Shown here: piece by piece, positions 12,401 through 45,710 of the stretch
Numbering within the stretch: the stretch's first letter is position 1
Layout: each line of letters starts with the position of its first letter
Origin: Methylobacterium sp. Leaf465
Lineage (GTDB): Bacteria > Pseudomonadota > Alphaproteobacteria > Rhizobiales > Beijerinckiaceae
NCBI RefSeq assembly: GCF_001424705.1
Contig: NZ_LMRA01000045.1
Span: 1,115-65,114, forward strand
Reading direction: 5' to 3'
DNA length: 64,000 bases
Program-made: the position numbers and the translations under genes
The notes under the pieces: model-generated
Database searches by the model: none
Seen by the model: only the letters and a program-made list of their open reading frames with translations
What the model was told of the DNA's origin: nothing

Positions 12401-14322
12401 ACGTCTTCGTACTGGACCGCCGTCAGCATGGACGGCGCGCGCCCAAGATAACGGGCAGCAGCTTCGAACGGCGCGGCTTCGGGCGGATCATAGCTCGGCA
12501 GCAGCTGTTCAGCAGCGAGCGCCTCGGTGAGGCGGGCGCGCTCCTCGACGCGCTCGCGTCGCTCCGCATCGGCCCGCTCGGAATCGTAGAGTCCCAGCGC
12601 CTGACGTGTGTCGGTGTCGACGCCCCGCCACCATCCGACGAACGTCGGCAGGTCGTGCGTGGTGATGGCCGTGAGGGCATCGCGGGGATAGGCTGCCGGG
12701 GGCTTGAAGCGGGCGCCCTGCTCGCGCTCGAAGGCGAGGATCCGGTAGCTCAGGATGCCGGCCTGCATCAGGGCGTCTGAGAAGCCCTCCGGCGCAGTGC
12801 CAAGATCTTCCGCGATCACGAGGCACTTGGCGCGGTGGCTTTCCAGGCGCAGGACCGCGAGCATCGGCTCGAAAGGCATCGCGACGTAAGCCCCCTCCTT
12901 GGCAGATCGGCCGACCGGGATCAGGAACAGGCGCGCGAGCTGGAAGGCGTGGTCGATCCGGATCGCGCCGGCGTGGCGCATGTTCGCCACCACCAGGGCG
13001 CGGAAGGCCGCGAGCCCGTCGCGCTCCATCTCCAGGGGATGGAAGGCTGGCAGGCCCCAATCCTGACCCTTCGGCGCCAGAAGGTCCGGCGGTGCCCCGA
13101 TGGAGACGCCGTTCGCGAACCGCTCGGGATGCGACCAGATCTCCGAGCCGCCGCGGTCGGCGCCGACGGCGAGATCGCGGTAGAGCCCGAGACGCATGCC
13201 GGTGGCGAGCGCGGTGTTGGATGCGTCCTCCAGTTGGCGATCCGCAAGGTACTGCAGCCAGATGTGGTAGGTCACGGTCTCGGCGTGGGCCTCGGCGAAG
13301 GCGCGCACGGCGGGCGTCCCGTTGCGGCGCATCTCTTCCGGCCAGTCACCGAGCCACTGGGCGCCCTGTGCCTGATAATGCTCGGCGAGCGCCTCGAAGG
13401 TGCCGTGGGCTTCGAGATCCGGGCCGCCGGCGGCCCGGAAGGCGATAAAGCCCGCGTCCATCCCGTCGCGCGCCGCGGATTCCTGCCAGAGGGCCTGAAG
13501 CACCGGCGAGAGCACGGCCCAGATGCCAGCATGCTCGACGAGCTTGGCCTCGCGCAGGCTCTCCACGCGATCCGCCATGGAGGCGAGGAGAGCGGCCGCC
13601 TTCGAGCCGACGAAGCCCGGCAGGACACCGGGCTCGATGAACAGGGTCTCGAGAAAGAGCCGTGACGACGGCGAGTAGGGCGAGATCTTTGTGCGGTCGG
13701 TGGCGAACAGCGCGTGGACGGGGCTGAGGCCCAGGAAGGACGCACCGCGCAGGCCCGCAGCCCTCGCTGCCCGCCCCGCATCGGCGTAAGAGCCGATCCC
13801 GAGGTTGTCGGGTGAGCGCAGGCCATAGAGTTGTGCCGCGAGCCCCCAATCGCGGGCTCCCTCATCGGCGTAGGCCCGCGGGCGCCAACAGCGCTGCGGC
13901 GCCGAGATCACCCAAGCATCCGAGCGATGCTCACCAAGCGCGACGGAAAGGCGGTGATAGCCGGGAGTAAGTGGCGGCAACTCGAAGCTGGAGCCCGTGA
14001 CCGCGACACGACCCTCGCGGTGATGTCCACGCTCGTCGACCAGACGCCAGGACAAGGTCCCGCCGGCGCCTGCCACCTGGATCGGGACACTCGTGGCGCG
14101 GCGGGCCTCGGCTGGCAGCAGCGGCGGGATCAACCCGCTCCGCACGGCCGAGACTTCGGAGAGGCTCGCGGCGATATCCGCATCGGTCTCGGCGGGATAG
14201 CCGAGGGCGGTGATCATCCCGCGCCGGACGTCAAGAGCGGTCTCCACCGGCTGCCCGAAGGCGTCGGTGTAGCCGGCGGCGACGCCAAGGAGGTCGGCGA
14301 GGCGTTCGAGGTCGCGGCTCAT
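9421..14322 (-). CDS. treY: MalQ-TreY fusion: 4-alpha-glucanotransferase + maltooligosyl trehalose synthase
   Basis: 1633 aa. Residues 1 to about 690 are MalQ (GH77): KISPYSPSSRLFLETLFIEP, nucleophile AIRIDHAFQLARLF, acid LVIAEDLGTAPEG, and TTHDLPTFVGWWRG. Residues about 700-1633 are TreY (GH13 subfamily 26): RSTYRLQFHKDFTFADA, HGYDIVDHSTINPELGG, LLLDIVPNHMG, GLRIDHIDGLADP, VVEKILEPGE. TreY converts the reducing end of maltodextrins to a trehalose linkage. MalQ disproportionates short maltodextrins, which would supply chains long enough for TreY. The start ATG overlaps the treZ stop by one base (TGATG), so treZ and treY are coupled. An ORF extension to 14355 is possible but the coupled ATG fits better. 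Confidence 0.95.
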   Translation of the reverse strand: MSRDLERLADLLGVAAGYTDAFGQPVETALDVRRGMITALGYPAETDADIAASLSEVSAVRSGLIPPLLPAEARRATSVPIQVAGAGGTLSWRLVDERGHHREGRVAVTGSSFELPPLTPGYHRLSVALGEHRSDAWVISAPQRCWRPRAYADEGARDWGLAAQLYGLRSPDNLGIGSYADAGRAARAAGLRGASFLGLSPVHALFATDRTKISPYSPSSRLFLETLFIEPGVLPGFVGSKAAALLASMADRVESLREAKLVEHAGIWAVLSPVLQALWQESAARDGMDAGFIAFRAAGGPDLEAHGTFEALAEHYQAQGAQWLGDWPEEMRRNGTPAVRAFAEAHAETVTYHIWLQYLADRQLEDASNTALATGMRLGLYRDLAVGADRGGSEIWSHPERFANGVSIGAPPDLLAPKGQDWGLPAFHPLEMERDGLAAFRALVVANMRHAGAIRIDHAFQLARLFLIPVGRSAKEGAYVAMPFEPMLAVLRLESHRAKCLVIAEDLGTAPEGFSDALMQAGILSYRILAFEREQGARFKPPAAYPRDALTAITTHDLPTFVGWWRGVDTDTRQALGLYDSERADAERRERVEERARLTEALAAEQLLPSYDPPEAAPFEAAARYLGRAPSMLTAVQYEDVVSELSQANVPGSTEGYPNWRRKLDRTLESIAASGGPLAKLAASLAAEDRGPRSGAARLASAPPRSTYRLQFHKDFTFADAEKIVPYLAKLGISHVYASPIQKARPGSTHGYDIVDHSTINPELGGEEDFVRFSDALHGAGLKLLLDIVPNHMGVGGADNPWWLSVLEWGGLSPSAEAFDIDWSRLGAKNKLVVPFLGDRYGEALEKGTLALKFDPEKGAFSIWHYEHEFPICPLQYPTILNRSLAALGDIEDAAALEVLGISERLRLMGEETTDERRRTFPAEAEELKDRLVEAVEASPAIAAAIGRTLKLLNGAKGHPDSFGPLHRLLEQQSYRLAHWRIAASDINYRRFFDVNGLAGLRVEKSDVFRRSHETIFHHIAAGRIDGLRIDHIDGLADPLGYARALQAAIGPGFYVVVEKILEPGERLRPWPVAGTTGYDVLNQLDGILVDKGKRAEIRKLYESRTQFDEPYKFMLRAAKAEILEISFASELEVMTSDLKAVADADRRTRDFSVNAIRRALIETIARFPTYRSYLPGDLDESDVEDEDIHLIETAVKKAKRWSALPDRSVHDFAADAMLGRIDVMGPGRPDPEVILRFRRRFQQLTGPVMAKSLEDTLFYRFAELLALNEVGGDPGEYGLDAEHFHALQAARARDWPNAMITTATHDTKRGEDARSRLLALSEIPQDWAAAWEAWTNLAQPHLTVIDKEPVPDANDQWMFFQAILGAWPLELLDTDDPVAIEDFRHRLDAYAEKALRESKRRSSWVNVDEDYEGAVHALFAQLIAPGSAFLAQLRPFAKRLAHLGIIAGLGRTVLKATLPGLPDTYQGTEFWDFSFVDPDNRRPVNYPALARALEEGLPAADLLAHWTDGRVKQATLARLLADRAARPSFYADADYQALPASGPQAEHVIAFTRSDATTGEGDLVVAVPRLVSGLVGEDLWSSEAFAGTGVAVTPASAWIDLVTGDEIAAEDGRIELGRAFARLPYAVLKRIR

Positions 14323-16124
14323 CAGTTCACACCCGTCAGGAAAACACCCGTCCAAGACGGAAGTACGATCGATCCGTTGCCCGACCCGCTCGACCAGATG
14401 ACCTGACCGCTCCCACGCTCGACGGTAAAATCCTCGCTGCCGACATTGGCCACGAAGCGAAGCCAGCCGCCCGCGTAGGTCCAGGTGCAGTCAACGATGT
14501 CGGGCCGCGGGAGGGTCGTCTTCGCGCCGAGGTAGCGGTTCTTCGTCAGCGGCACCACGCTCTGATGACGGATCTGAAGCAGGTTGCGCGTATCGGCGAG
14601 CACCGCGCGGTGCGGCGCATCCGAGCGCTCGGACCAGTCGATCCGCGAATCCGTAAACGTATTCGCTTCGGTGGGGTCTGGGATCACCGACGTGTCGTCG
14701 GCGAAGGCGGCGAAGCTCTTGAACTCCCGGCGGCGGCCCTCACGAACGGCCTTGTTCAATTCCCCGTCCGGCGCGAAATCGACGAAAAACAGGAACGGCG
14801 CGGTCGCCGACCACTCCTCGCCCATCCACAGCATCGGGATCTGCGGGCTCAGGATCAGCCCGGCCCGGGCAAGCGCAAGCTTCTGCGGATCGCAGAGGTC
14901 GCTCAGTCGCTCACCCAACGCCCGGTTTCCGACCTGATCGTGGTTCTGCAGGAAGGTGACGAAGGCCGAGGGCGGCAGGTGCGCTGAAGGCTCGCCGCGC
15001 GGATGGTTGTCGAGGGTCGGGAACGACTCGCCCTGATAGGCGAAGCCTTCCGACAGGCAGCGAGCCAGATGCTCAACCGGCTTGTCGGCGAAGTTAGCAT
15101 AGTATCCGGCATCCTCGCCGGTCAGCAGCACATGCCAGCAATGATGCAGATCGTCGGCCCATTGTGCGTTGTGCTGGATCGCCTCACCCTGCGGATCGCG
15201 CTCAAGCCAGCGGGCTTGGTTCGCTTCGTTCTCGAGAACAAGGTGAATGTGGCGGCCGGGCAGCCTTGCGCGGATCGTCTCAGCGAGTTCTCCAATGAAG
15301 TGCTTCTCGGAATCGTCGAGAATCGCATGGACCGCGTCGAAGCGCAGACCGTCGAAATGAAACTCCTCGAGCCAGTACAGGGAATTCTCGATGAAAAAGT
15401 CGCGGACAACGCGTCCGCTGGTCTCGCCGTCGAAATTGATTCCGGCGCCCCAGGGCGTCTGGTGTCGTTCGGTGAAGAAGGTCTTGGCGTAAGCGTTGAG
15501 GTAATTCCCAGCCGGGCCGAAATGGTTGTAGACGGCGTCGAGGAATACCATCAACCCGAGGGCGTGCGCCTTGTCGATGAGGCGCTTCAGGTCGTCCGGT
15601 CGGCCGTAGACGCTGTCCGGCGCGTAGGGCAGCACCCCGTCGTAGCCCCAGTTGCGGGTGCCCTTGAAGTCGGCCAGCGGCAATAGTTCGATGGCCGTGA
15701 CGCCGAGGTCGCGCAGATCCTCGAGCTTGCCCTCCAGCGCCGCGTAGGTGCCTTGCGGCGTTGCCGTCCCGACATGGAGTTCGTAGAGCACGACCTCCTC
15801 CCAGGGGCGTCCGGTCCAGGCACTGTCGGTCCAATCGTAGGCGCGCGGATCGATCACCTCGCTGAAGCCGGAGACGTCGTCGGGCTGAAACCGCGATGCC
15901 GGATCCGGTACGACGAGATCGCCGTCGATGCGATAGCCGTAGCGCGCACCACCGCCGGCGTTCGGAACCGTGAGCCGGCGCCAGCCTGCACCGGCTTCCG
16001 GCATCGGATGGTCGGCCCCGTCGAGGACCAGGCTCACTTCCTGGGCCGTCGGCGCCCAGAAGGCGAAGCGAACCCCGTCCTTCGTCACTTCGCTGCCGAA
16101 AGCCATGCTGTGGGCGCGCTGCAT
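14322..16124 (-). CDS. treZ: Malto-oligosyltrehalose trehalohydrolase TreZ
   Basis: 600 aa from the ATG at 16124, usual for TreZ. It releases free trehalose from the maltooligosyl-trehalose made by TreY. An N-terminal CBM48-like domain (AFWAPTAQEVSLVLDG) precedes a GH13 barrel with YELHVGTATPQGTYAALEGK, region I FLDAVYNHFGPAGNYL, nucleophile in GLRFDAVHAILDDSEKHF, acid in LVLENEANQARWL, and TFLQNHDQVGNRALGERL. A GTG at 16151 and an ATG at 16106 are alternative starts, and none has a strong RBS. It is coupled to malQ-treY by a one-base stop/start overlap. A gap of nearly 500 bases separates it from glgX upstream, so it may have its own promoter. Confidence 0.95.
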   Translation of the reverse strand: MQRAHSMAFGSEVTKDGVRFAFWAPTAQEVSLVLDGADHPMPEAGAGWRRLTVPNAGGGARYGYRIDGDLVVPDPASRFQPDDVSGFSEVIDPRAYDWTDSAWTGRPWEEVVLYELHVGTATPQGTYAALEGKLEDLRDLGVTAIELLPLADFKGTRNWGYDGVLPYAPDSVYGRPDDLKRLIDKAHALGLMVFLDAVYNHFGPAGNYLNAYAKTFFTERHQTPWGAGINFDGETSGRVVRDFFIENSLYWLEEFHFDGLRFDAVHAILDDSEKHFIGELAETIRARLPGRHIHLVLENEANQARWLERDPQGEAIQHNAQWADDLHHCWHVLLTGEDAGYYANFADKPVEHLARCLSEGFAYQGESFPTLDNHPRGEPSAHLPPSAFVTFLQNHDQVGNRALGERLSDLCDPQKLALARAGLILSPQIPMLWMGEEWSATAPFLFFVDFAPDGELNKAVREGRRREFKSFAAFADDTSVIPDPTEANTFTDSRIDWSERSDAPHRAVLADTRNLLQIRHQSVVPLTKNRYLGAKTTLPRPDIVDCTWTYAGGWLRFVANVGSEDFTVERGSGQVIWSSGSGNGSIVLPSWTGVFLTGVN

Positions 16125-34397: not shown

Positions 34398-34636
34398 GTC
34401 GGTCACTCCCAACTCAACCCGAAGACCATGCGCCCTGACGACTTGCCCTGACTTGCACGAGACCGTGGGGCCAAGATGTTCGATTCAGATGACAAGTCCT
34501 GTTCGCTGGAATAACGTCCGCTTGGCACTATCAACAGAAATCCTGGGTTATACCCAGCTTAACGTATGTGACTCGGCCAGGCGTCGGGCGCGGGTCGGGT
34601 CTTGACCACGACACCGGCTTCCCGCGTTGTCACCCC
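34398..34636. other. Divergent spacer with a 15-base palindrome
   Basis: 239 bases between the hypothetical gene (minus) and the VWA gene (plus). It is AT-richer around 34470-34570 than the surroundings. It contains a perfect inverted repeat CTGGGT-TAT-ACCCAG at 34543-34557, about 80 bases before the VWA start, which is a candidate operator. No gene is visible. Confidence 0.45.
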
Positions 34637-35812
34637 ATGCTGCTCCAGTTCTTCACCGCCTTGCGCGACGCCAAGGTCCCCGTCACGCTGCGGGAGTTCC
34701 TGACGCTCCTGGGTGCGCTCGACCGGGACCTCGCCGAGAAGCGGATCGAGGAGTTCTACCTCCTGGCCCGTACGACCCTGGTGAAGGACGAGCGCAACCT
34801 CGACCGTTTCGACCGCGTGTTCGGCACCGTGTTCAAGGGCATCGAGACCCTGGGCGCGGCATCCGAACCGACGCCGATCCCCAAGGAATGGCTGCGCAAG
34901 CTCGCCGAGAAGTACCTCACCGATGCGGAGAAGGCGGAACTGCAGGCGCTCGGCTGGGACAATCTGTTCGAGACCCTGAAACAGCGCCTCGCCGAACAGC
35001 GCGAGCGCCACCAGGGCGGCAACAAGTGGATCGGCACCGGCGGCACCTCGCCGTTCGGGGCCTACGGCTACAATCCGGAGGGCATCCGGATCGGCCAGGA
35101 CGGCAACCGCAACTTCCGCGCCGTGAAGGTCTGGGACAAGCGAGAATTCCGGGACCTGGACGACACGGTCGAGCTCGGCGCCCGCAACATGCGGGTCGCT
35201 CTGCGACGCCTGCGCCGCTTCGCCCGCAGCGGCGCGGCGGACGAACTCGACCTCGACGGAACGATCCGCGAGACCGCCGCCAAGGGCTATCTCGACGTGA
35301 GGCTCCGGCCGGAGCGGCGCAATGCCGTGAAGGTCTTACTGTTCCTCGACGTGGGCGGCTCGATGGACTTCCACGTGGCTTTGGCCGAGGAGTTGTTCTC
35401 CGCTGCCCGCTCGGAGTTCAAGCACTTCGAGCACTTCTACTTCCACAACTGCCCCTACGAGCGCGTCTGGCGCGAGAACCGGCGCCGGCACGACGAGACA
35501 CTGCCACTCCTCGACGTGCTGCGGACCTATCCGCCGGACTATCGCGTGGTGTTCGTCGGCGACGCCTCCATGAGCCCGTACGAGATCGCCATGGCGGGCG
35601 GATCGGTGGAGCACTGGAACGAGGAACCCGGCGAGGTCTGGCTGAACCGCATCCTCGAGCGGTTTCCGAAGACGGTCTGGCTGAACCCCGTTCCGGCGGA
35701 ACACTGGGCCTACACCCAGTCGATCGGGATGATCCGCCGGCTGATGGGAGAGCGCATGTTCCCACTCAACCTCGAAGGCATCGATGCGGCGATGCGGACT
35801 TTGGTCCGGTAA
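34637..35812 (+). CDS. CoxE-like VWA-domain protein
   Basis: 391 aa from ATG 34637. The N-terminal half is the CoxE/DUF-type region (MLLQFFTALRDAKVPVTLRE, VFKGIETLGAASEPTPIPKE). The VWA domain carries the variant MIDAS LFLDVGGSMDFHV near residue 238 and VVFVGDASMSPYEIA. VWA proteins of this kind partner MoxR ATPases in metal-centre insertion or complex assembly. The only MoxR gene in view is at 28892-29776. The client complex is not evident from neighbours. Confidence 0.9.
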   Translation: MLLQFFTALRDAKVPVTLREFLTLLGALDRDLAEKRIEEFYLLARTTLVKDERNLDRFDRVFGTVFKGIETLGAASEPTPIPKEWLRKLAEKYLTDAEKAELQALGWDNLFETLKQRLAEQRERHQGGNKWIGTGGTSPFGAYGYNPEGIRIGQDGNRNFRAVKVWDKREFRDLDDTVELGARNMRVALRRLRRFARSGAADELDLDGTIRETAAKGYLDVRLRPERRNAVKVLLFLDVGGSMDFHVALAEELFSAARSEFKHFEHFYFHNCPYERVWRENRRRHDETLPLLDVLRTYPPDYRVVFVGDASMSPYEIAMAGGSVEHWNEEPGEVWLNRILERFPKTVWLNPVPAEHWAYTQSIGMIRRLMGERMFPLNLEGIDAAMRTLVR

Positions 35813-35886: not shown

Positions 35887-36207
35887 TCAGCCCTGACGCG
35901 CCGGCGTCGTGACGCTGAGCCCGTCCAGCTCCGGGGTGATGCGGATCTGGCAGCACAGCCGCGAGGTCGCGCGCACGTCGGAGGCGAAATCGAGCATGTC
36001 CTGCTCCATCGCCTCGGCGGGACCCACGACCTCGGCCCAGGCCGCATCGACGTAGACGTGGCAGGTGGCGCAGGCACAGGCGCCGCCGCATTCCGCATCG
36101 ATCCCCGGTACGTTGTTGCGGATCGCCGCTTCCATCACGGTCGATCCCACGTCGCCCTCCACGGTCCTGGCCGTTCCGGCGTGGTCGACGTAGGTGATCT
36201 TGGGCAT
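35887..36207 (-). CDS. 2Fe-2S ferredoxin (adrenodoxin type)
   Basis: 106 aa, the usual length. Cluster ligands fit the C-x5-C-x2-C ... C pattern: Cys40, Cys46, Cys49 (AECGGACACATCHVYV) and Cys86 (SRLCCQI). Such ferredoxins donate electrons to cytochrome P450s, oxygenases or assembly systems; no partner is adjacent. The ATG at 36207 has GGAG about six bases upstream. The upstream ORF extension is not supported. Confidence 0.95.
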   Translation of the reverse strand: MPKITYVDHAGTARTVEGDVGSTVMEAAIRNNVPGIDAECGGACACATCHVYVDAAWAEVVGPAEAMEQDMLDFASDVRATSRLCCQIRITPELDGLSVTTPARQG

Positions 36208-36388: not shown

Positions 36389-36739
36389 TCAGAGGGGTCG
36401 CGTCGAGGTCGCGAGGGTTTCGGCGATTGCGGCGGCGAGCGTTTCGGCGGGGACGTCCGTCCCACCGGCGCGCAGCGCGTCCTCGATCGCCCCCGAGATC
36501 CGGGCGACGCGGACCGCGCCGATCCCGAGAGCCGAGCCCTTCAGGGTATGGGCGAGGTCGGCCCGCTCGGCCGGCTCCCGGTCCGGATCGACGATTCCCG
36601 GCAGGAGGCGGTGGCACTGGGCCGCGAAGAGCCCGAGGAGCTCCGCGGCCAGCGCGGCGTCGCCGAAGGTCTGGCGCGACAGGTGGTCGGCATCGAGGAG
36701 CACCGCCGCCGACGGGTCTGGGAAATCCGGTTCTCGCAC
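36389..36739 (-). CDS. Hpt-domain phosphotransfer protein
   Basis: 116 aa from GTG 36739 (GAGGA close upstream). It is almost entirely one histidine-phosphotransfer four-helix domain, with phospho-acceptor His64 in DLAHTLKGSALGIGA. No histidine kinase or response regulator gene is adjacent, so it is an orphan Hpt. It lies divergent to the giant polar-growth-type gene. In alphaproteobacteria stand-alone Hpt proteins can serve CtrA-controlling relays (ChpT is a different fold), so the partner must be found elsewhere. Confidence 0.85.
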   Translation of the reverse strand: MREPDFPDPSAAVLLDADHLSRQTFGDAALAAELLGLFAAQCHRLLPGIVDPDREPAERADLAHTLKGSALGIGAVRVARISGAIEDALRAGGTDVPAETLAAAIAETLATSTRPL

Positions 36740-37018
36740 TGCATCCTCGCGCGCCTGCGGCGGCGGCCATCCTGGCTATCCACAGCTGAGCCCCGCCGTC
36801 GTTCGCTTCCGTCTACGCGTTGAGGCATCATGCAGAAAGACGACGGCGCGGTACCGGCCCTCGGCTTGGTAACCATTCCGTTAAGGTTTTTTGGGCGCTG
36901 CGGCCGGCTCGGGTATCCGAGCCCTGTGCCGAAGTCTAAAGTTCCTTGGTAAATTGGTAAAAGTAACCTTGATCGACGGGCGCGGCCGCCGATCGGGATA
37001 CGCGTAACGAGGCGTTGA
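36740..37018. promoter_or_regulatory. Divergent promoter spacer, Hpt gene / giant repeat protein
   Basis: 279 bases with an AT-rich core at 36870-36970 (for example TTTTTT near 36887). It holds a 7-bp hairpin GGCTCGG-GTAT-CCGAGCC at 36906-36923 and an exact tandem octamer TTGGTAAA TTGGTAAA at 36946-36961. A DnaA-box-like CTATCCACA lies at 36776-36784. The giant gene's RBS GAGG sits seven bases before ATG 37019. Confidence 0.5.
36946..36961 (+). repeat. Tandem octamer TTGGTAAA x2
   Basis: Two exact head-to-tail copies of TTGGTAAA, followed by AAGTAACC, about 57 bases before the start of the giant gene. Spacing of one 8-base unit and the AT-rich setting suggest a regulator binding site or core promoter. 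Confidence 0.5.
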
Positions 37019-40000
37019 ATGGCCACGGAAAAGAAGCTCAAGGACCCGGCCGAGGCGGCTCTGTCGGCGATCGAGCAGGCTCTCAACCTCGACGCTTTCG
37101 CTCAGGGCGACGAGGCATCCCGGGTGGAACCCCGCCTGCCGGATGTCGGCGACGGCGATCCCTTGCGCGATCCCAGCGGTCGCCTCGCGCCGCCCCGCCT
37201 CGACCTCGACCAGCCCCTCGCCTCGGACCTGCCGCCGCCGGACCGCAACCGGCCGCGCCGCGAAGGCGGCCTCCTGCCGCCCGACCGTTCCATGGTGGCC
37301 AACGACGATCGCCAGAACATCGGCATCCTGCAGCAGACCCTGCGCGTGCGCCCCTCGCGCACCCCCTACCTCATCGCCGCCGCGGCGGGCGCCCTCTGGA
37401 TCGCCGGCCTCCTCGCCCTGGCCTGGGTGCAGTCCTCCGGCGACCTGCGCGGCTTCTTCCAGGGCCTGACCGCGCTCCAGGGCGCCGTGGCGGCGACCGC
37501 CCTCGTGGGCCCCGTGGTGCTGTTCGCCATCATGGGGATGCTCGCCGTGCGCGCCCAGGAGATGCGCCTCGTCGCCCGCGCCGTGGGCGAGGTGGCGATC
37601 CGTCTGGCCGAGCCCGAGAACTTCTCCACCGACGCGGTGCTCACCATGTCGCAGACCGTCCGGCGCGAGGTCGCGGCGGTCGGCGACGGCGTCGAGCGTG
37701 CCCTGGCCCGGGCGGGCGAGCTCGAGACCCTGGTGCGCGGCGAGATCGCGACCCTGGAGCGGGCCTATTCCGACAACGAGATCCGCATCCGCTCCCTCGT
37801 CGAGGAGCTCGTCGCCCAGCGCGAGTCGATCATCGCCAATGCCGAGCGCGTGCGCGGGGCCATCACGGGCACCCACCAGAGCCTGACGGCGGAGCTCGAC
37901 GGCGCCGCCGAGCGCATCGTCTCCGCGGTGAACGGCGCCGGCGACCGGGTCACCAGCGCCCTCGATGCCCGCGGCGAGGCCATCACCTCGGCCCTCGGCG
38001 ACCGCGGCGACGCGATCACCGCCGCCCTCGGCGAGGCCGGCGACCGGGTGGTCGAGCTGGTCTCCGGCCGCGGCGACGACCTCGTGCAGCGCCTCGCCTC
38101 CACCAGCGAGGGGGTGCGCGGCAGCCTCGCGGAGGTCGGCAGCGCCCTCACCCTGTCCCTGGAGACCCGGGCCGACGAGGTCACCCGGGCCTTCGAGCGC
38201 ACCGGCGGCATCCTCACCACCACCCTGGCGGAGAATGCCGGGCAGGTGGCGCGGACCCTGGCCCAGACCGGTTCCGAGGTCATCGAGGCCCTGAACCGCC
38301 AGGGCGGCGAAGTCCGCCAGACCTTCGAACTGTCCGCGCGCGGCCTCGAAGAGGCCTTCCTGGCCCGCGGCTCCGAGCTGACGGCCCAGTTCTCCTCCAC
38401 GGGCGGCGAGATCACCGCGCGCTTCGCCGAGACGGGCGATGCCCTGCGCGCCCACTTCGCCGAGACCGGCGCCGCCCTCACCCACGACATCTCCGTGCGC
38501 GGCGATGCCCTGCGCAGCGAGATCGAGACCGCCGGCACCGGCGTGTCCGCCCTCATCGAGGCCCGGGCCCGCGAGGCCCAGACGGGTCTGGCCGCCGCCG
38601 CCGGCAGCATCATCGAGACCTTCACGGCCCGCGCCGACGGCGTGCGGGAGGACCTCGTCCGCTCCGTCGACGGCATCGCCTCCGGCCTCGACACCCAGGG
38701 CGGCGCCCTGGCCGATCGCATCGAGACCGCCGCGGCCCGCCTGCACGAGACCATCACGGTCCACGGCTCGGAAGTCTCGAACCTGTTCGAGACCCGCGGC
38801 CGCGACACTCAGGCCGGCCTGGCGCTGGCCGCCAGCGCGATCATCGAGAGCTTCGGCGCCCGCGCGGACGCCCTCCGGGAGACCCTGATCGGCTCGGTGG
38901 AGGACGCGACGACCCGCCTCGACGAGCGCGGCGGCACCCTGGCCGAGCGCATCGAGGCCGCAGCCACCCGCCTGCGGGAGACGATCGACGTGCATGGCGG
39001 TTCGGTCTCCGAGCGCATCGACGCGTCGGGCCGCGAGGCCCAGGCCGCCCTGGCCCTTGCCGCCAGCGCCATCGTGGAGACCTTCGGCAACCGGGCCGGC
39101 GGCGTGCGCGACGACCTCCTCCGCTCGGTGGAAGGCCTCGCCAACGGTCTGGACCAGCACGGCGCGGCCCTGGCCGAGCGCATCGAGACGGTGGCGAACC
39201 AGCTGCATCGGACCGTCACGGTCGAGGGCGCGACCCTGGAATCCACCCTTGGGGCGACCGGCGATCGCGTCGGCGAACTCGTGCGCCTGCGGACGCAGGA
39301 AGCCACGCAGACGCTCGAGGGCGCCCTGTCGGCCCTCGGCTACACCTTCGAGACCCGGGCCCTGGAGGCGGTGGACAGCCTGCGCGCCACGGCCGCGACC
39401 CTCGAATCCGAGATCGGCAACCGGACGTCCGAGGCCGCCGACACCTTCCGCCGCAGCGCGGAGGAGACCACCGTGGCCCTCGGCGCCAGCACCACCGAGG
39501 CCGCGCAGTCCCTGCGCCGCGCCTCCGCCAGCGCCACCGGCGAGCTGGAGGCCCGCACCGTCGAGGCGGTGCAGATCTTCGAGACCCGGCTGGCCGCCAC
39601 GTCAGCCGATCTCGCGGCCCGGACCGCCGAGGCGGCCGAGCTCCTGCGCAACGCCGCCGACGGCCTCGGCGGCACGGTGGGCAGCAGGGCCAGCGCCTCC
39701 ATCGAGGCCCTGCGCAGCACCCTGGATGCCGTCAACGACGAGCTGGCCCGGCGCGCCGAGGAGGCCGCCGGCACCATCGCCCGCGCGGCCGACGGCCTCG
39801 GCGGCGATCTCATCGCCCGCATCCGCGACGTCGAGACGGTCTTCGACAACCACGGCCGGACCCTGGGCAACCTCATCGCCTCCCAGGCGCAGGACGCCCA
39901 GACCCAGCTCGCCAATACCGGGCGCGACATCGTGCTGGCCGTCACCGCGCAGGGCGCGCGGGTGAACGACGCCCTCAACCAGACCGGCGCCAGCTTCGCC

Positions 40001-43000
40001 GACACCACCGAGACCCGCGTCCAGGCGATCGACCGCGTGCTCAACGACCGCCTCGCGACCCTCCAGGAGACCATCGCCCGCGGCGACATCCTGGCCGAGC
40101 GCATCGCCCGCGACACCGCCGCCCTCACGGAATCCGTGTCCGGTCGCCTTGAGGAGATGGACCGCGTCATCACGGTGCAGGGCAAGGTGGTGGCCGACAG
40201 CATCGCCGCCCGCACCCGGGAGGCCCAGGAGACCGTCGAGAGCCAGCTCGGCGCCCTCGAGGAGCGCTCCGCCCGTCGTTCGACCGAGATCGGCGAGACC
40301 TTCGCCAACCTGGTCGCCCAGATCGACGGCCATCTCGGCGGCCGAGCCACCGCCCTGAACGAAGCCCTGATCGTGCGGACCGCCGAGATGGCCCGCGTCA
40401 TGGCCGAGGGCGGCCGCGACCTGGTCCAGGCCCTCGACACGCGGGCGGACACCATGGCCCTCGACATCGCCCAGCGCGGCGCCAGCCTCGGCGACGTCCT
40501 CGGCGAGCGCTCGGCGGACATCGCCCGCCGCCTCGACGAGCAGACCCTGGAGCTGTCCCGCCGCCTCGACGAGGGCGCCGGCCGCTTCGATGCCGGCGTG
40601 CTCGGTCGCCTGGAAGCGATCGGCACCGCCCTCGAGGAGCGCAGCCGCCTCATCGAGGAGTCGTTCGGAGCCCAGGCCTTCGAGGCGATCCGCCTGATCG
40701 AGAGCCGCACCCGCGCGGTGGACGAGGATCTGGCGACCCGCACCCGCGAGCTCGTCGACATGATCGTCGAGCGCACCGGGAGCGCCAACCAGGCCCTCGA
40801 CACCCAGGCCGTGGCCATTCGCGAGGCGTTCTCGCAGCGCGCCGACGAGCTCGTCCGCCTCATCGATGCCCGCACCGCCGCGATGGGCACCGAGCTCGAC
40901 GAGAAGGGGCGCGCCGTGTTCGGCGCCCTCGGCGGCCGCATCACCGAGCTCGCCCGGCTGTTCGACCTCGGCAGCAATTCCCTCGGCGCGGTGCTGGAGC
41001 AGCGCGGCGAGACGATCCTCGCTCGCCTGCGCGACATGGTCACGGAGGCCGATCGCCAGCTCAGCGAGGGCGAGGGCCGCCTCGGCACCACCCTCGACCG
41101 CCGGACCTCCGACATCAGCTCGCTCCTCGACGAGGGCGTGCGCACGGTCCACCAGCTGCTCGACGACCGCACGGGGGAGATCCGCGCGCTGCTCGACAAC
41201 CACGCCAGCTCCCTGGGCTCCAACTTCAGCGACCGCATCGCGCCGCTGCACGACACGCTCGACCAGCGCGGCCGGGCGTTCGTGGACACCATCGCGGCCA
41301 GCCTCGGCAGTGCCGCCGAGGCGGTCGAGGCGCGGACGCAGGCCCTGGCCACCCTCTTCGAGGAGCGCATCGAGCACCTCGACGAGGTGGTCGACCGTCG
41401 CGGCGGCAGCCTCGCGGACTCGGTCGAGGCCAGGACCCGCGCCCTCGCGGAGACCTTCGACCAGCGCATCGGTGTGCTCGACGAGCTCGTGGACACCCGC
41501 GGCAGGCGCCTCACCGAGACGCTGGGGGCCCAGGCCCAGAGCCTGGTCGAGCAGTTCGACCAGCGCCTCGGAAGCCTGGATGACGTGGTCGAGCGCCGGA
41601 GCGGCGAGATGGCCCAGGCCGTGGACGAGCGCACCCGCGCGCTCGCCAACCTGTTCGACCATCGCATCAACATCCTGGGCCAGCTCGTCGACCATCGCGG
41701 CGCACAGCTGACCGAGACCCTCGAGGGCCGGACCGAGGCCCTGACGGCCCTCCTCGACCAGCGCATCGGCGCCCTCGACGCGATCGTCGACGGCCGCGGC
41801 AACCACCTGACCCAGTCGCTCGACGCCCGGGCCCAGGGCCTGCGCGGCCTGTTCGACGAAGTCCTGAGTGCCCTCGACGGCCTGATCGACGGCCGCGCCG
41901 AGGCCCTGACCGACCGGGTCGAGACCCAGACGCGCGGCCTCACCACTCTGTTCGACGAGCGGCTCGGCGCCCTCGACCGCCTCGTCGACCACCGCACCGG
42001 CACCCTGTCCGACGAAGTCGATGCCCGCGCCCAGGCACTGGTCTCGCTCATCGACACGCGGGTCGGTGCCCTCGACCAGGTGGTGGATGAACGGGCGGGC
42101 GCCCTGCGCCAGCAGGCCGAGGCCATGGCGCAGGCCCTGGTCTCCCTCTTCGAGGAGCGCGCCACCGGCCTCGCCGCACAGGCGGACGACCGGACCCGCG
42201 CCCTCGTGGCGATCTTCGACGAGCGCCTGGGGGCCCTGGAGGGCCTGGTGGACGGGCGGGCCGGCACCCTGGCCGACCGCGTCGAGGAGCGGACCCGCAC
42301 CCTCGCCTCGGTGTTCGACACCCAGCTCCGGACCCTCGACGAGACGGTCGAGCACCGGGCCGACAGCCTCTCCCGCCAGACCGAGGAGCGCGGCCTCGCG
42401 CTCGCGGCGATCTTCGACGAGCGCCTGCGTGCCCTCGAGAGCCTGGTGGATGGACGCGCCGGCGCCCTGGCCGACCGCGTCGCGGAGCGGACCCACACCC
42501 TCGCTTCGGTCTTCGACAGCCAGCTCCGGACCCTCGACGAGACCGTGGATCACCGCGCCAACGTCCTGGCCCAGCAGGCTGAGGACCGCGGCAGCGCCCT
42601 CGCGGCGATGTTCGACGAGCGGCTCACGGCCCTCGGCGGCCTCGTGGAGGCCAGCGCGGCGGAGTTCGCCCGCACCATCGACACGCAGGGCCAGGCCCTG
42701 ACGGAGGCGGTGGACAGCCGGTCGGAGGCCTTCACGAGCCGCATCGACACCCGGATGAAGGTGTTCGCCACCCTCGTCGCCTCGCGCGGCGACGCCCTGG
42801 CCACGGCCTTCGACGACCGCCAGGACGCCTACGCGTCCCTGGTCGACCAGCGCACCGCGGCGATGCTGGCGGCCTTCGACGCGCGGGTCGACCGCCACGC
42901 GGCCCTCGCCGAGGCGCACAGCCAGGCCCTGGCCGCGGCCCTCGACCAGCGCAACGAGGCCGTGGCGGCCCTGCTCGACACCGGCACCGGCGCCATGACC

Positions 43001-45079
43001 GAGGCGTTCGACCGTCGCTCGACGGCCCTGGCCGGACTCATGGAGGCCCGTGGCCAGGCCCTCGCCCGCCGGCTGGCGGAGAGCGCCGAGACCATCACCC
43101 GCGCCATCGAGACGGGGGGCGGTGCCCTGGTCGAGACCCTCGACGGACGCGGGAACGCGGTGGTCGCCCAGCTGACGGACCAGTCCGAGCGCCTGCGCGA
43201 GATCGTGGACGGACCGGCGGCCCAGCTCGTGGAAGCCCTGGCGCTGCGCGGCGACGCCATCGAGCGCGCCCTGCAGGAGAGCGGCGCGCCGCTGGTCGCC
43301 GCCATCCGCGAGCGCACCGATGCCCTGGCCGCCCAGTCCCGCGCCTCCGCCGAGACGCTGCTCTCGGCCATCGACGGCGGTGCGACCCGGGCCATCGCTT
43401 CCCTGAACGACGCCAACGCCCAGATGCGCGGCGAACTCGCAGCCATCCTCGAGCGGATCGACGGGGCCAACGACGCCCTGCGCGAGCTCCTGGCGGGGAC
43501 CGGCCAGAACCTCGGCCATATCGAGGCGGGCCTCTCGCACCGGATCGCCGACATCCGCGACGGCCTGGCGGCCGTGGCCAGCGAGACGGATCGGGCCAGC
43601 GCGGGCGTGTCCGAGCAGGTCCACCTTCTCCGGAACGTGGCCGAGGGCGCCCTGCGGGACGCCGCCGAGCTGGCGGCCTCCCTCGACGAGCGCGGCCGTG
43701 CCCTCGACGAGATCGGCCGCACCCATGCGGGGACCCTGCGGCAGGCCGTCGGCCACCTCGAAGGCGCCGCCGGGCAGCTGCAGGGCGCGGCCGGCCAGAT
43801 CCAGGGCGCCGAGAGCCGCCTCGCGGACCGTCTGGGCGAGCGCGAGGCCGCCATCGCCAGCGTGCTGTCGCGGATCGAGGAGCGCTCCGGCACCCTCGAC
43901 GCGCAGACCGCGCGCTTCGACGCGATGATCGGCGAGACCCTGCGCGCCGCCGAGGAGCGGGCGCGGGCCCTGGGCACCAGCCTGTCCGAGACCGCCGCGG
44001 GCGCCGGGACCGCCGTCGCCGCGGCGTTCGAGGGCCTGCGCGCCAGCGCCGACAGCGAGAGCGGACGCACTGCCGAGGCCGTGCGCACCGCGATCGAGGC
44101 GGCGTCGCAGCAGATGATGGGCGTCCTCGAAACCGCCTCCGGCCGCTTCGGGGACTCCGTCTCCGGCCTGCGCGAGATGGCGGCCGAGATCCGGCGCGAG
44201 CTCGATGCCACCCGGGCCGACCTCCAGCGCGGGGTGCTGGAAATCCCGCGCGAGACGCAGGACGCCACCGGCGAGATGCGCCGAGTGGTCTCCGAGCAGC
44301 TCAAGGCCCTGACCGAGCTTTCCGGCCTGGTCCAGAGCGCGGGCCGCGCGGTGGACGCGGCGGTTCCGCAGGTGTCGGAGCCGAAGCGCCCCGCCGCCCC
44401 GCCGCCGGCCCCCGCTCCCGCCGCGACCGCTCCGGCGAAGGCCGCCCCGGCCAAGCCGGCTGCGGCCCCGGCCAAGCCGGTCGCGGCAACGGCGACGAAG
44501 GCCGCGGCTCCGGCGGGCCGCCCCGGCACGTCGATGAACCTCGTCTCCGCCCCCGCGGCGGGACGGACCGGCCCGGCGTCCCGCGCCGAGGCCCGGCCGG
44601 GCGAAGGCCGCGGCTGGCTCTCCGACCTGCTGACGCGGGCCTCCCTCGACGAGGATGCGGACCCGGCGCCGGACGCGCCGGCTGCGGCCACGACGCAGCA
44701 GGCGGAAGCCCAGAAGAACGCCGCCGAGCGCGGGCGCACCGCCCTCGAGACGATCTCCAGCGACATCGCCAAGATGATCGACCACCAGACGGCGGTGGAG
44801 CTGTGGGAGCGCTATCGCCGGGGCGAGCCGAACCTGTTCGACCGGCGGATCTACACGGCGCAGGGCCGGCAGACCTTCGAGGAGGTGCGCCGCCGCTACG
44901 CCGCGGACGCCGATTTCCAGCGCACGGTCGACCGCTACGTGGGCGAGTTCGAGCGCCTGCTCGGCGACGTCTCGAAGAACGACCGCGACTCCTCGCGGGC
45001 GGATGCCTACCTCACCTCGGAGACCGGCAAGGTCTACACCATGCTGGCCCATGCCAGCGGCCGCTTCGACGGGGCGTAG
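37019..45079 (+). CDS. Giant apolipoprotein-repeat membrane protein, Growth Pole Ring (GPR/RgsE)-like
   Basis: 2686 aa. Residues 1-115 are hydrophilic; two membrane helices follow (about 117-138 and 155-176). Then come some 2200 residues of amphipathic helix built on 11-residue units, with three tandem 77-residue repeats (7 x 11) at residues 507-737 and 33-residue repeats (FDERLGALEGLVDGRAGTLA type) dominating about 1400-1900. A Pro/Ala/Lys linker (about 2455-2520) precedes a C-terminal globular domain (AVELWERYRRGEPNLFDRRI). This matches GPR of Agrobacterium and RgsE of Sinorhizobium, huge apolipoprotein-like proteins forming a ring at the growing pole. The homology is inferred from architecture. 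Large open frames on the opposite strand are codon-bias artefacts. Confidence 0.75.
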   Translation: MATEKKLKDPAEAALSAIEQALNLDAFAQGDEASRVEPRLPDVGDGDPLRDPSGRLAPPRLDLDQPLASDLPPPDRNRPRREGGLLPPDRSMVANDDRQNIGILQQTLRVRPSRTPYLIAAAAGALWIAGLLALAWVQSSGDLRGFFQGLTALQGAVAATALVGPVVLFAIMGMLAVRAQEMRLVARAVGEVAIRLAEPENFSTDAVLTMSQTVRREVAAVGDGVERALARAGELETLVRGEIATLERAYSDNEIRIRSLVEELVAQRESIIANAERVRGAITGTHQSLTAELDGAAERIVSAVNGAGDRVTSALDARGEAITSALGDRGDAITAALGEAGDRVVELVSGRGDDLVQRLASTSEGVRGSLAEVGSALTLSLETRADEVTRAFERTGGILTTTLAENAGQVARTLAQTGSEVIEALNRQGGEVRQTFELSARGLEEAFLARGSELTAQFSSTGGEITARFAETGDALRAHFAETGAALTHDISVRGDALRSEIETAGTGVSALIEARAREAQTGLAAAAGSIIETFTARADGVREDLVRSVDGIASGLDTQGGALADRIETAAARLHETITVHGSEVSNLFETRGRDTQAGLALAASAIIESFGARADALRETLIGSVEDATTRLDERGGTLAERIEAAATRLRETIDVHGGSVSERIDASGREAQAALALAASAIVETFGNRAGGVRDDLLRSVEGLANGLDQHGAALAERIETVANQLHRTVTVEGATLESTLGATGDRVGELVRLRTQEATQTLEGALSALGYTFETRALEAVDSLRATAATLESEIGNRTSEAADTFRRSAEETTVALGASTTEAAQSLRRASASATGELEARTVEAVQIFETRLAATSADLAARTAEAAELLRNAADGLGGTVGSRASASIEALRSTLDAVNDELARRAEEAAGTIARAADGLGGDLIARIRDVETVFDNHGRTLGNLIASQAQDAQTQLANTGRDIVLAVTAQGARVNDALNQTGASFADTTETRVQAIDRVLNDRLATLQETIARGDILAERIARDTAALTESVSGRLEEMDRVITVQGKVVADSIAARTREAQETVESQLGALEERSARRSTEIGETFANLVAQIDGHLGGRATALNEALIVRTAEMARVMAEGGRDLVQALDTRADTMALDIAQRGASLGDVLGERSADIARRLDEQTLELSRRLDEGAGRFDAGVLGRLEAIGTALEERSRLIEESFGAQAFEAIRLIESRTRAVDEDLATRTRELVDMIVERTGSANQALDTQAVAIREAFSQRADELVRLIDARTAAMGTELDEKGRAVFGALGGRITELARLFDLGSNSLGAVLEQRGETILARLRDMVTEADRQLSEGEGRLGTTLDRRTSDISSLLDEGVRTVHQLLDDRTGEIRALLDNHASSLGSNFSDRIAPLHDTLDQRGRAFVDTIAASLGSAAEAVEARTQALATLFEERIEHLDEVVDRRGGSLADSVEARTRALAETFDQRIGVLDELVDTRGRRLTETLGAQAQSLVEQFDQRLGSLDDVVERRSGEMAQAVDERTRALANLFDHRINILGQLVDHRGAQLTETLEGRTEALTALLDQRIGALDAIVDGRGNHLTQSLDARAQGLRGLFDEVLSALDGLIDGRAEALTDRVETQTRGLTTLFDERLGALDRLVDHRTGTLSDEVDARAQALVSLIDTRVGALDQVVDERAGALRQQAEAMAQALVSLFEERATGLAAQADDRTRALVAIFDERLGALEGLVDGRAGTLADRVEERTRTLASVFDTQLRTLDETVEHRADSLSRQTEERGLALAAIFDERLRALESLVDGRAGALADRVAERTHTLASVFDSQLRTLDETVDHRANVLAQQAEDRGSALAAMFDERLTALGGLVEASAAEFARTIDTQGQALTEAVDSRSEAFTSRIDTRMKVFATLVASRGDALATAFDDRQDAYASLVDQRTAAMLAAFDARVDRHAALAEAHSQALAAALDQRNEAVAALLDTGTGAMTEAFDRRSTALAGLMEARGQALARRLAESAETITRAIETGGGALVETLDGRGNAVVAQLTDQSERLREIVDGPAAQLVEALALRGDAIERALQESGAPLVAAIRERTDALAAQSRASAETLLSAIDGGATRAIASLNDANAQMRGELAAILERIDGANDALRELLAGTGQNLGHIEAGLSHRIADIRDGLAAVASETDRASAGVSEQVHLLRNVAEGALRDAAELAASLDERGRALDEIGRTHAGTLRQAVGHLEGAAGQLQGAAGQIQGAESRLADRLGEREAAIASVLSRIEERSGTLDAQTARFDAMIGETLRAAEERARALGTSLSETAAGAGTAVAAAFEGLRASADSESGRTAEAVRTAIEAASQQMMGVLETASGRFGDSVSGLREMAAEIRRELDATRADLQRGVLEIPRETQDATGEMRRVVSEQLKALTELSGLVQSAGRAVDAAVPQVSEPKRPAAPPPAPAPAATAPAKAAPAKPAAAPAKPVAATATKAAAPAGRPGTSMNLVSAPAAGRTGPASRAEARPGEGRGWLSDLLTRASLDEDADPAPDAPAAATTQQAEAQKNAAERGRTALETISSDIAKMIDHQTAVELWERYRRGEPNLFDRRIYTAQGRQTFEEVRRRYAADADFQRTVDRYVGEFERLLGDVSKNDRDSSRADAYLTSETGKVYTMLAHASGRFDGA
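38537..39229 (+). repeat. Three tandem 231-bp (77-residue) coding repeats
   Basis: Units start at 38537, 38768 and 38999 inside the giant gene. Protein units begin TGVSALIEARA, SEVSNLFETRG and GSVSERIDASG and end IxVHG or TVEG. Each is seven 11-residue blocks; units diverge enough that homogenisation is not very recent. Confidence 0.85.
42218..42613 (+). repeat. Near-identical 198-bp (66-residue) tandem duplication
   Basis: Copies at 42218-42415 and 42416-42613 inside the giant gene share long identical stretches (for example FDxQLRTLDETV, LVDGRAGxLADRV). Each copy is two 33-residue units. This is the most conserved repeat pair and so probably the most recent duplication. Confidence 0.85.
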
Positions 45080-45628: not shown

Positions 45629-45710
45629 GGCGGCGTTGTAGCAGCCGCGCCGCAGCCGCGCGCCTCCTTCCGTGGACGGCGCGACCCCGCGCCGCTCACG
45701 GGTTCGGTCC

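Follow-up and report, generated by a model that had tools for sequence, protein, structure and literature searches.

GPR of Agrobacterium tumefaciens (Atu1348, 2115 residues) is described in the available excerpts of PMC8262873 as a protein with two membrane segments, a helical body, a proline-rich region and a functionally required C-terminus. Its homologue in Sinorhizobium meliloti, RgsE, is 42% identical to it according to the available part of PMC7327166. Proteins of this type are a central scaffold in the Hyphomicrobiales, which build one growing pole without MreB, and have so far been called apolipoprotein-like. We analyzed a window of 64,000 nucleotides from Methylobacterium sp. Leaf465 (contig NZ_LMRA01000045.1, positions 1,115 to 65,114), in which an open reading frame (ORF) at 37019-45079 encodes a 2686-residue protein of the same kind. 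This protein is an unexceptional representative of an important family that is already known, and we consider it probable that it works as a membrane-anchored, near-straight coil scaffold of the GPR/RgsE type, probably tied to a phosphorelay, whose coil length is phase-locked. The gene and its parts are as follows.

37019..45079, plus strand: gpr/rgsE orthologue, 2686 residues from ATG, the only whole-protein match in its own genome
37361..37432, plus strand: predicted membrane segment 1, residues 115-138 (hydropathy scan)
37466..37558, plus strand: predicted membrane segment 2, residues 150-180 (hydropathy scan), followed by a conserved N-terminal region with the N anchor (residue 238)
37820..43444, plus strand: hendecad coil, residues 268-2142, with one register shift at residue 1020 (register hidden Markov model, period 3.663)
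38543..39235, plus strand: three 77-residue (7 x 11) units, residues ~509-739 (self-identity)
42212..42607, plus strand: 66-residue (6 x 11) tandem duplication, residues 1732-1863
43445..44338, plus strand: remainder of the coil, residues 2143-2440, where the helical period differs (3.57-3.61 in the best windows), with a conserved C anchor at 2391
44339..44698, plus strand: proline/alanine-rich linker of variable length, residues ~2441-2560, with indels of arbitrary size
44741..45076, plus strand: conserved C-terminal domain, residues ~2575-2686 (genome searches, RgsE match)

The window gene is an rgsE/gpr orthologue

A 2089-residue gene annotated as "kinesin" in an S. meliloti record (CP090106.1, locus L220) was taken as rgsE, because it has the length stated for RgsE in the available part of PMC7327166. 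The first-pass annotation had related the N-terminal membrane region and the C-terminal domain of the window protein to GPR/RgsE, and this was upheld at both ends: residues 1-323 are 37% identical to RgsE (E 3e-51) and the last 109 residues 56% (E 9e-44). Judged by these matches, ORF 37019-45079 is an orthologue of S. meliloti RgsE and hence of GPR, the comparison having been made directly with RgsE, through which the relation to GPR runs. The C-terminal domain was found in 39/41 genomes, the window's own included, and in 190 of the 199 genomes of the order, with one match in each. The N-terminus, MATEKKLKDPAEAALSAIEQALNLD, is the same in 20 of 21 same-genus proteins (window included), and the remaining one (L070) differs by one residue.

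RgsE resembles the window protein in having a long coil, a linker and the C-terminal domain, and its locus likewise carries a divergent hpt gene upstream and a 2Fe-2S protein gene beyond hpt. It is about 600 residues shorter, and its coil (residues 261-1760) shows 16 register shifts, 10 of them seven-residue steps, versus one shift in residues 268-2142 of the window coil, the RgsE register model having been run with a laxer shift penalty. GPR is 571 residues shorter than the window protein; its ring and phenotype are known, whereas the window protein is known from sequence. TipN of Caulobacter presumably has an architecture similar to that of GPR. The 3.7-Mb S. meliloti record that holds rgsE is filed as plasmid pSymB, carries cytochrome bc1 genes as well and looks like the chromosome.

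The predicted coil is built from hendecads

The hydrophobic residues of 216-2440 recur with a best period of 3.663 residues (power 194, whereas none of 200 shuffles exceeded 9.9). Every one of the 21 multiples of 11 as far as 231 shows a self-identity peak, 11 to 23 standard deviations above expectation. The register model gained 1273 bits of log-likelihood over residues 226-2440; it held phase over 268-1020 and 1020-2142, about 170 hendecads with one shift between them, and frequent register shifts followed after 2142. Hydrophobic residues occupy hendecad position 1 in 85% of units and position 5 in 91%, arginine occupies position 8 in 48%, and position 9 is alanine or glycine in half.

These data confirmed the 11-residue periodicity and the three 77-residue units that had been read from the letters, and adjacent copies of the latter are 53-59% identical in their best windows, with 64% for copies two units apart. 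The 33-residue-based repeats were borne out too, by strong lag-33 and lag-66 signals at residues ~1416-1935. The term "near-identical" for the 66-residue duplication was an overstatement, since its copies (1732-1797 and 1798-1863) share 79% identity in protein and 85% in DNA.

Between close orthologues, coil length changes mostly in phase with the helix

For the comparison of orthologues, 53 disjoint pairs were drawn from 135 proteins after removal of the duplicate strains L110, L111 and L152, and locus L056 was excluded from length and indel counts. Multiples of 11 made up 84/168 coil indels versus 4/301 indels in the N-terminal and linker regions, and 84/161 versus 4/94 when indels of at least 5 residues were counted. 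The commonest other coil sizes were 29 (12 cases), 36 (8), 58 (6) and 65 (4). Alignments place gaps in repeats with a bias, and a phase test independent of alignment was therefore used, in which the anchor-to-anchor length difference is divided by the pair's own helical period. It was applied to the 40 pairs at no less than 75% identity, 7 of which show no length difference. Among the pairs at 89% identity or above, 22 differ in length; they gave R 0.954 with a mean direction of -7 degrees, all lay within 50 degrees, the V-test gave p 2e-10, and none of 100,000 random draws was as extreme. All 33 differing pairs together gave R 0.787. The linker control (C anchor to C-terminus) gave R 0.23 (p 0.33, n 35), a weaker test than the main one since most of its differences are below 10 residues. 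These data indicated that coil length between close orthologues changes mostly in steps that preserve helical phase.

Coil periods fall into two groups, 3.62-3.63 (27/135 proteins) and 3.65-3.67 (96/135). By hand count, 10 of 12 close pairs with period 3.65-3.67 differ by a multiple of 11, as against 1 of 10 with period 3.62, where steps of 36, 94, 29 and 18 occur instead; length steps follow each clade's own helix. Among Rhizobium loci, counted by record title, 12 of 13 belong to class 10 modulo 11 with five distinct lengths between 1407 and 1847, and 12 of the 21 coils of the window's genus fall into one class. Constancy of coil length modulo 11 was not found across the order, the 114 anchored proteins outside the genus being spread over all 11 classes, the largest holding 29. 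This is because some clades have a period of 3.62, and the phase test with each pair's own period therefore took its place. The first-pass annotation had proposed that the protein grew by unequal crossing-over between repeat units; gain and loss of whole units is what the orthologues show, and it may have come about by unequal crossing-over or by slippage followed by selection.

The most serious competing explanation is that the 11-residue steps mirror the DNA repeat structure alone, through slippage or unequal crossing-over, with coil length and phase close to neutral, and we give it somewhat less than an even chance. In its favor, the gene carries tandem units of 33, 66 and 77 residues that reach 85% identity in DNA, and coils in the genus range from 1486 to 2702 residues anchor to anchor. 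It is opposed by the low DNA identity, just 58-75%, of the best windows at lags 33, 77, 99, 132 and 154 (the 66-residue pair excepted), and by the 29- and 36-residue steps of the clade with period 3.62, which track helix turns rather than one unit, although older duplications of these sizes could equally explain them.

The coil is more probably a rod than a set of apolipoprotein-like helices

In the available excerpts of PMC8262873, the apolipoprotein label of GPR rests on matches to PF01442 (apolipoprotein A1/A4/E), and the coil is proposed there to be a set of amphipathic helices with a role in binding and sorting membrane lipid at the growing pole. For the window protein this would be supported by PF01442 matches at 12 stretches (E 6.5e-84), as for RgsE (12 stretches, E 7.6e-77), by a weak match to solved apoA-IV (E 4e-4) and, for GPR, by the deletion phenotypes reported in those excerpts. 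What the family match means was examined with 440-residue pieces of the window protein and RgsE, shuffled in phase, that is, with residues exchanged solely among identical hendecad positions. The window piece scored 77.9 bits in its native order, under the cut-off of 90, and its in-phase shuffles 72.3, 78.3 and 110.3; the RgsE piece scored 109.9 bits and its shuffles 101.7 and 97.4. Full shuffles (two for the window piece, one for the RgsE piece) gave no PF01442 match. Thus, the match in both pieces needs nothing beyond 11-residue composition, and for these pieces apolipoprotein homology can no longer be argued from sequence. The likeness of the window coil to PF01442 apolipoproteins lies in the 11-residue amphipathic periodicity, with no sequence-order signal beyond in-phase composition in either piece. 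The same periodicity occurs in lipid-binding helices too.

Residues 226-2240 carry a net charge of -117 with 3 lysines, and two of the 11 hendecad positions are strongly hydrophobic. A Heliquest-type lipid-binding discriminant was low, with a mean of -0.02, and 1.2% of 169 windows exceeded the threshold of 0.68. With these features, a near-straight coiled-coil rod is preferred, and we regard lipid-sorting helices as an unlikely account of the coil. The rise of an alpha-helix is 0.15 nm per residue. The available excerpts of PMC8262873 state that the helical part, of 1,700 residues, would reach 600 nm when extended and argue that the protein must fold back; as an alpha-helix, 1,700 residues would measure about 255 nm, and the argument in those excerpts is therefore weaker than stated. 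The 50-nm foci reported there for GPR still call for an explanation if the coil is a rod.

Protein length varies widely in the family

Lengths were taken from a stop-to-stop recount, since some earlier open-frame values were larger. Of the 27 genomes of the genus (the window's among them), 21 yielded a usable full-length protein; the others were G019/L056 (not one frame), the contig-edge genes of G011, G015 and G023, and the genomes without a match, G012 and G014. These 21 proteins have 2033 to 3281 residues, the window protein being the 14th from the shortest, and its anchor-to-anchor coil has 2153 residues. Outside the genus there were 118 proteins, 4 of which were dropped for want of clear anchors; coils range from 776 to 2321 residues, 7/114 exceed that of the window, and proteins run from ~1,000 to ~3,000 residues (open frames: L098 934, L109 1064, L182 3050). 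Thus, the protein is longer than the described homologues GPR (2115) and RgsE (2089), as the first-pass annotation had said, and ordinary for its genus; the extra 25% of length is real but ordinary, and exceptional length was not borne out. As family length varies so widely, ~2,100 residues do not define GPR/RgsE. For L072 (G130) and L073 (G094) the open-frame values were 3503 and 3486, versus 2690 each in the recount. In the single-contig genome G019, the two ends of the gene (L056) fall into different open frames, by sequencing error or a real break.

That the extra length alters the diameter or reach of the polar ring appears improbable to us. At 0.15 nm each, 1,870 residues make about 280 nm, which agrees, in order of magnitude only, with the 200 nm given for the Agrobacterium ring in the available excerpts of PMC8262873, and against this stands a variation of ~1,250 residues inside a single genus, for which no corresponding change is known. 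That the protein is instead an unrelated long coiled coil of the kinesin, SMC or ZorA type, similar to GPR in looks only, as the "kinesin" annotation of S. meliloti rgsE and weak ZorA matches (E 3e-4) could suggest, is hardly credible given specific homology at both non-coil ends, which already refutes it unless the ends were acquired by fusion, together with single copy and common neighbors. The ZorA, SMC and kinesin labels were dropped as weak coil matches only.

A divergent Hpt gene is conserved beside the scaffold gene

Upstream of the gpr/rgsE gene, the window carries the following features.

36740..37018, unstranded: hpt-gpr intergenic region, 279 bp (direct reading)
36389..36739, minus strand: divergent single-domain Hpt phosphotransfer protein, 116 residues, motif HTLKGSA, candidate active histidine 64 (PF01627, E 1.3e-8)
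35887..36207, minus strand: 2Fe-2S ferredoxin, start inferred at MPKITY (PF00111, E 3.3e-10 on a longer frame)
34568..35812, plus strand: VWA CoxE-like protein (PF05762, E 8.1e-8)

The Hpt frame scores 35.4 bits against PF01627 (cut-off 24.6), and its histidine lies in an HxxKG motif of the phosphorylatable type. A profile search located a divergent Hpt frame in 120 of 139 eligible loci, at most 2 kb upstream, and elsewhere in 2, the profile having been trained on the loci that were searched. The 139 loci comprise the window, its relatives in the order and 80 loci that were best matches, not a random sample, and they include the three duplicate strains and L056, the gene position of which is wrong. 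The histidine column of the alignment is His in 120/123 rows. Five Hpt domains in the window's own genome exceed the cut-off; two of these, including the one beside gpr, belong to short frames. Among the open-licence GPR/RgsE papers listed in the search, the word Hpt was not found except in PMC9022086, where it concerns another kinase; Atu1347, Atu1349, SMc00189 and SMc00191 were not found among the papers listed in a further search.

Proposed explanation

Two predicted N-terminal membrane helices would anchor the scaffold in the inner membrane, and ~1,870 residues would form one long, nearly unbroken helical coil of 11-residue units. The sequence periodicity was observed; the coil, near-straight or slightly right-handed, and its oligomer state are inferred. 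A flexible linker would lead to a 110-residue domain whose conservation was observed and which may serve in docking. In close orthologues, the coil gains or loses pieces that keep its hydrophobic stripe in phase. Because of this, the data suggest that what selection maintains is a continuous rod, some ~280 nm long were it helical throughout, and not a string of separate lipid-binding domains. Conservation of the divergent Hpt gene suggests that the scaffold is tied to a His-Asp phosphorelay, for which adjacency and the intact histidine were observed; a physical or regulatory link is putative.

Several observations weigh against this explanation. Nine of the 21 genus coils lie outside the modal class modulo 11, as does L172 (class 2) outside that of the other Rhizobium loci. 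The window protein and its nearest pair partner (L050) differ by 30 residues and are 66 degrees out of phase, owing to 14 residues by which they differ at residue 2242, beyond the hendecad stretch. Five of 11 differing pairs at 75-89% identity, besides the window's, are 61 to 102 degrees off (L126/L173 at 61; L068/L069, L064/L067, L117/L182 and L150/L168 at 84-102), and the phase test covers identities of at least 75%, with 13 pairs under 75% left out. Tandem repeats alone would yield unit multiples without selection. Hpt was not found in 19/139 loci, one being the misplaced gene, and a plain search with the window Hpt sequence found it in 78/127 loci, fewer than the self-trained profile. The model of the C-terminal domain is poor (predicted local distance difference test score 64) and had no match at E 0.001 when compared with the PDB library only, in which the best fold match reached E 0.41. 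Localization, binding and structure of the window protein are predicted only.

The phase-locked changes in length speak for a continuous rod, and the Hpt neighbor is a specific candidate for connecting phosphorelays with polar growth. Phase-keeping length evolution and the conserved Hpt neighbor were not found described before for GPR/RgsE, and among the papers listed in the open-licence literature search none combines hendecad with GPR/RgsE.

Related coil proteins occur in MreB-holding orders

Distant RgsE homologues have been reported in Emcibacterales and Rhodospirillales (available part of PMC7327166). A profile of the C-terminal domain matched 54/140 genomes of other alphaproteobacterial orders, and Sphingomonadales was newly added with a 774-residue protein of Sphingomonas parapaucimobilis (C-terminal domain 34% identity, E 5e-7). 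Twenty proteins of the class, 19 of them from outside the order, were compared, and all have one or two N-terminal membrane segments in a simple hydropathy scan. The N-terminal profile matched 9/21 proteins (these 20 and the Sphingomonas protein, which was not matched), 8/20 outside the order, and none of the reversed decoys. These other-order proteins share with the window protein the membrane anchor and the C-terminal domain, and a divergent Hpt frame stands in 6 of 20 loci outside the order (L221-L225, L235); the L221 match is under the Pfam cut-off and its sequence is without the histidine, and the L235 frame is without a Pfam match. They differ from it in length, mostly 700-1500 residues, and in coil period, which is 3.56-3.60 in 15 of 17 measured. 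In another order (genome G302), the same-strand frame directly upstream is a hybrid kinase that ends in an Hpt domain. Solved-structure relatives of the C-terminal domain were rejected, with a best sequence match at E 0.043 and a best fold match at E 0.41.

MreB was not found in any of 7 genomes of the order that were tested, the window's included, and was found in 18/18 tested genomes from other orders. Thus, the coil family defined by the C-terminal domain is not tied to MreB loss. We tentatively suggest, as an idea that may well prove wrong, that GPR/RgsE is the Hyphomicrobiales branch of an alphaproteobacterial family of phase-locked, membrane-anchored coil rods, a family older than polar growth and elsewhere found alongside MreB, and that it works with a dedicated Hpt protein, through which a His-Asp phosphorelay governs the growth-pole scaffold. 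With the C-terminal domain present in more than a third of the other-order genomes, an older scaffold role can be studied in MreB-holding bacteria.

Other neighbors and frames in the window

The most conserved neighbor is the 2Fe-2S ferredoxin, found upstream in 124/127 loci (in L220 at 1358-1678); L056 was dropped from the 127-locus neighbor counts, and L110, L111 and L152 were kept in the Hpt and ferredoxin counts. The VWA CoxE-like gene was found in 21/127 loci and in 2/107 outside the genus, and two loci of other orders (L235, L232) have a VWA CoxE-like gene near the homologue that is 62-63% identical to the window's. The window genes directly downstream (DUF1489, an ORF at 45672 and MFS) adjoin the homologue in none of 100 loci outside the genus, and MlaE lies within 4 kb in 37 of these 100. 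The motif TTAACC, which we take to resemble a CtrA half site, occurs in 83/120 hpt-gpr upstream regions versus 2/119 downstream controls and is absent from that of the window. CtrA-type sites are not claimed as a general promoter rule, given that absence and a downstream control that is not a promoter.

Opposite the gpr/rgsE gene, the minus strand has open frames at 39602-45052 (1816 residues) and 36881-39208 (775 residues), which are probably shadow frames of a GC-rich repetitive gene, and a 1853-residue minus-strand frame in the same stretch matches PF01442 weakly. Elsewhere in the window, at 9421-14355 on the minus strand, a 1644-residue frame fuses a MalQ-type 4-alpha-glucanotransferase (PF02446, PF21226) with an alpha-amylase-family half (PF00128; TreY-like by eye), and it adjoins further alpha-glucan/trehalose genes, named by eye.

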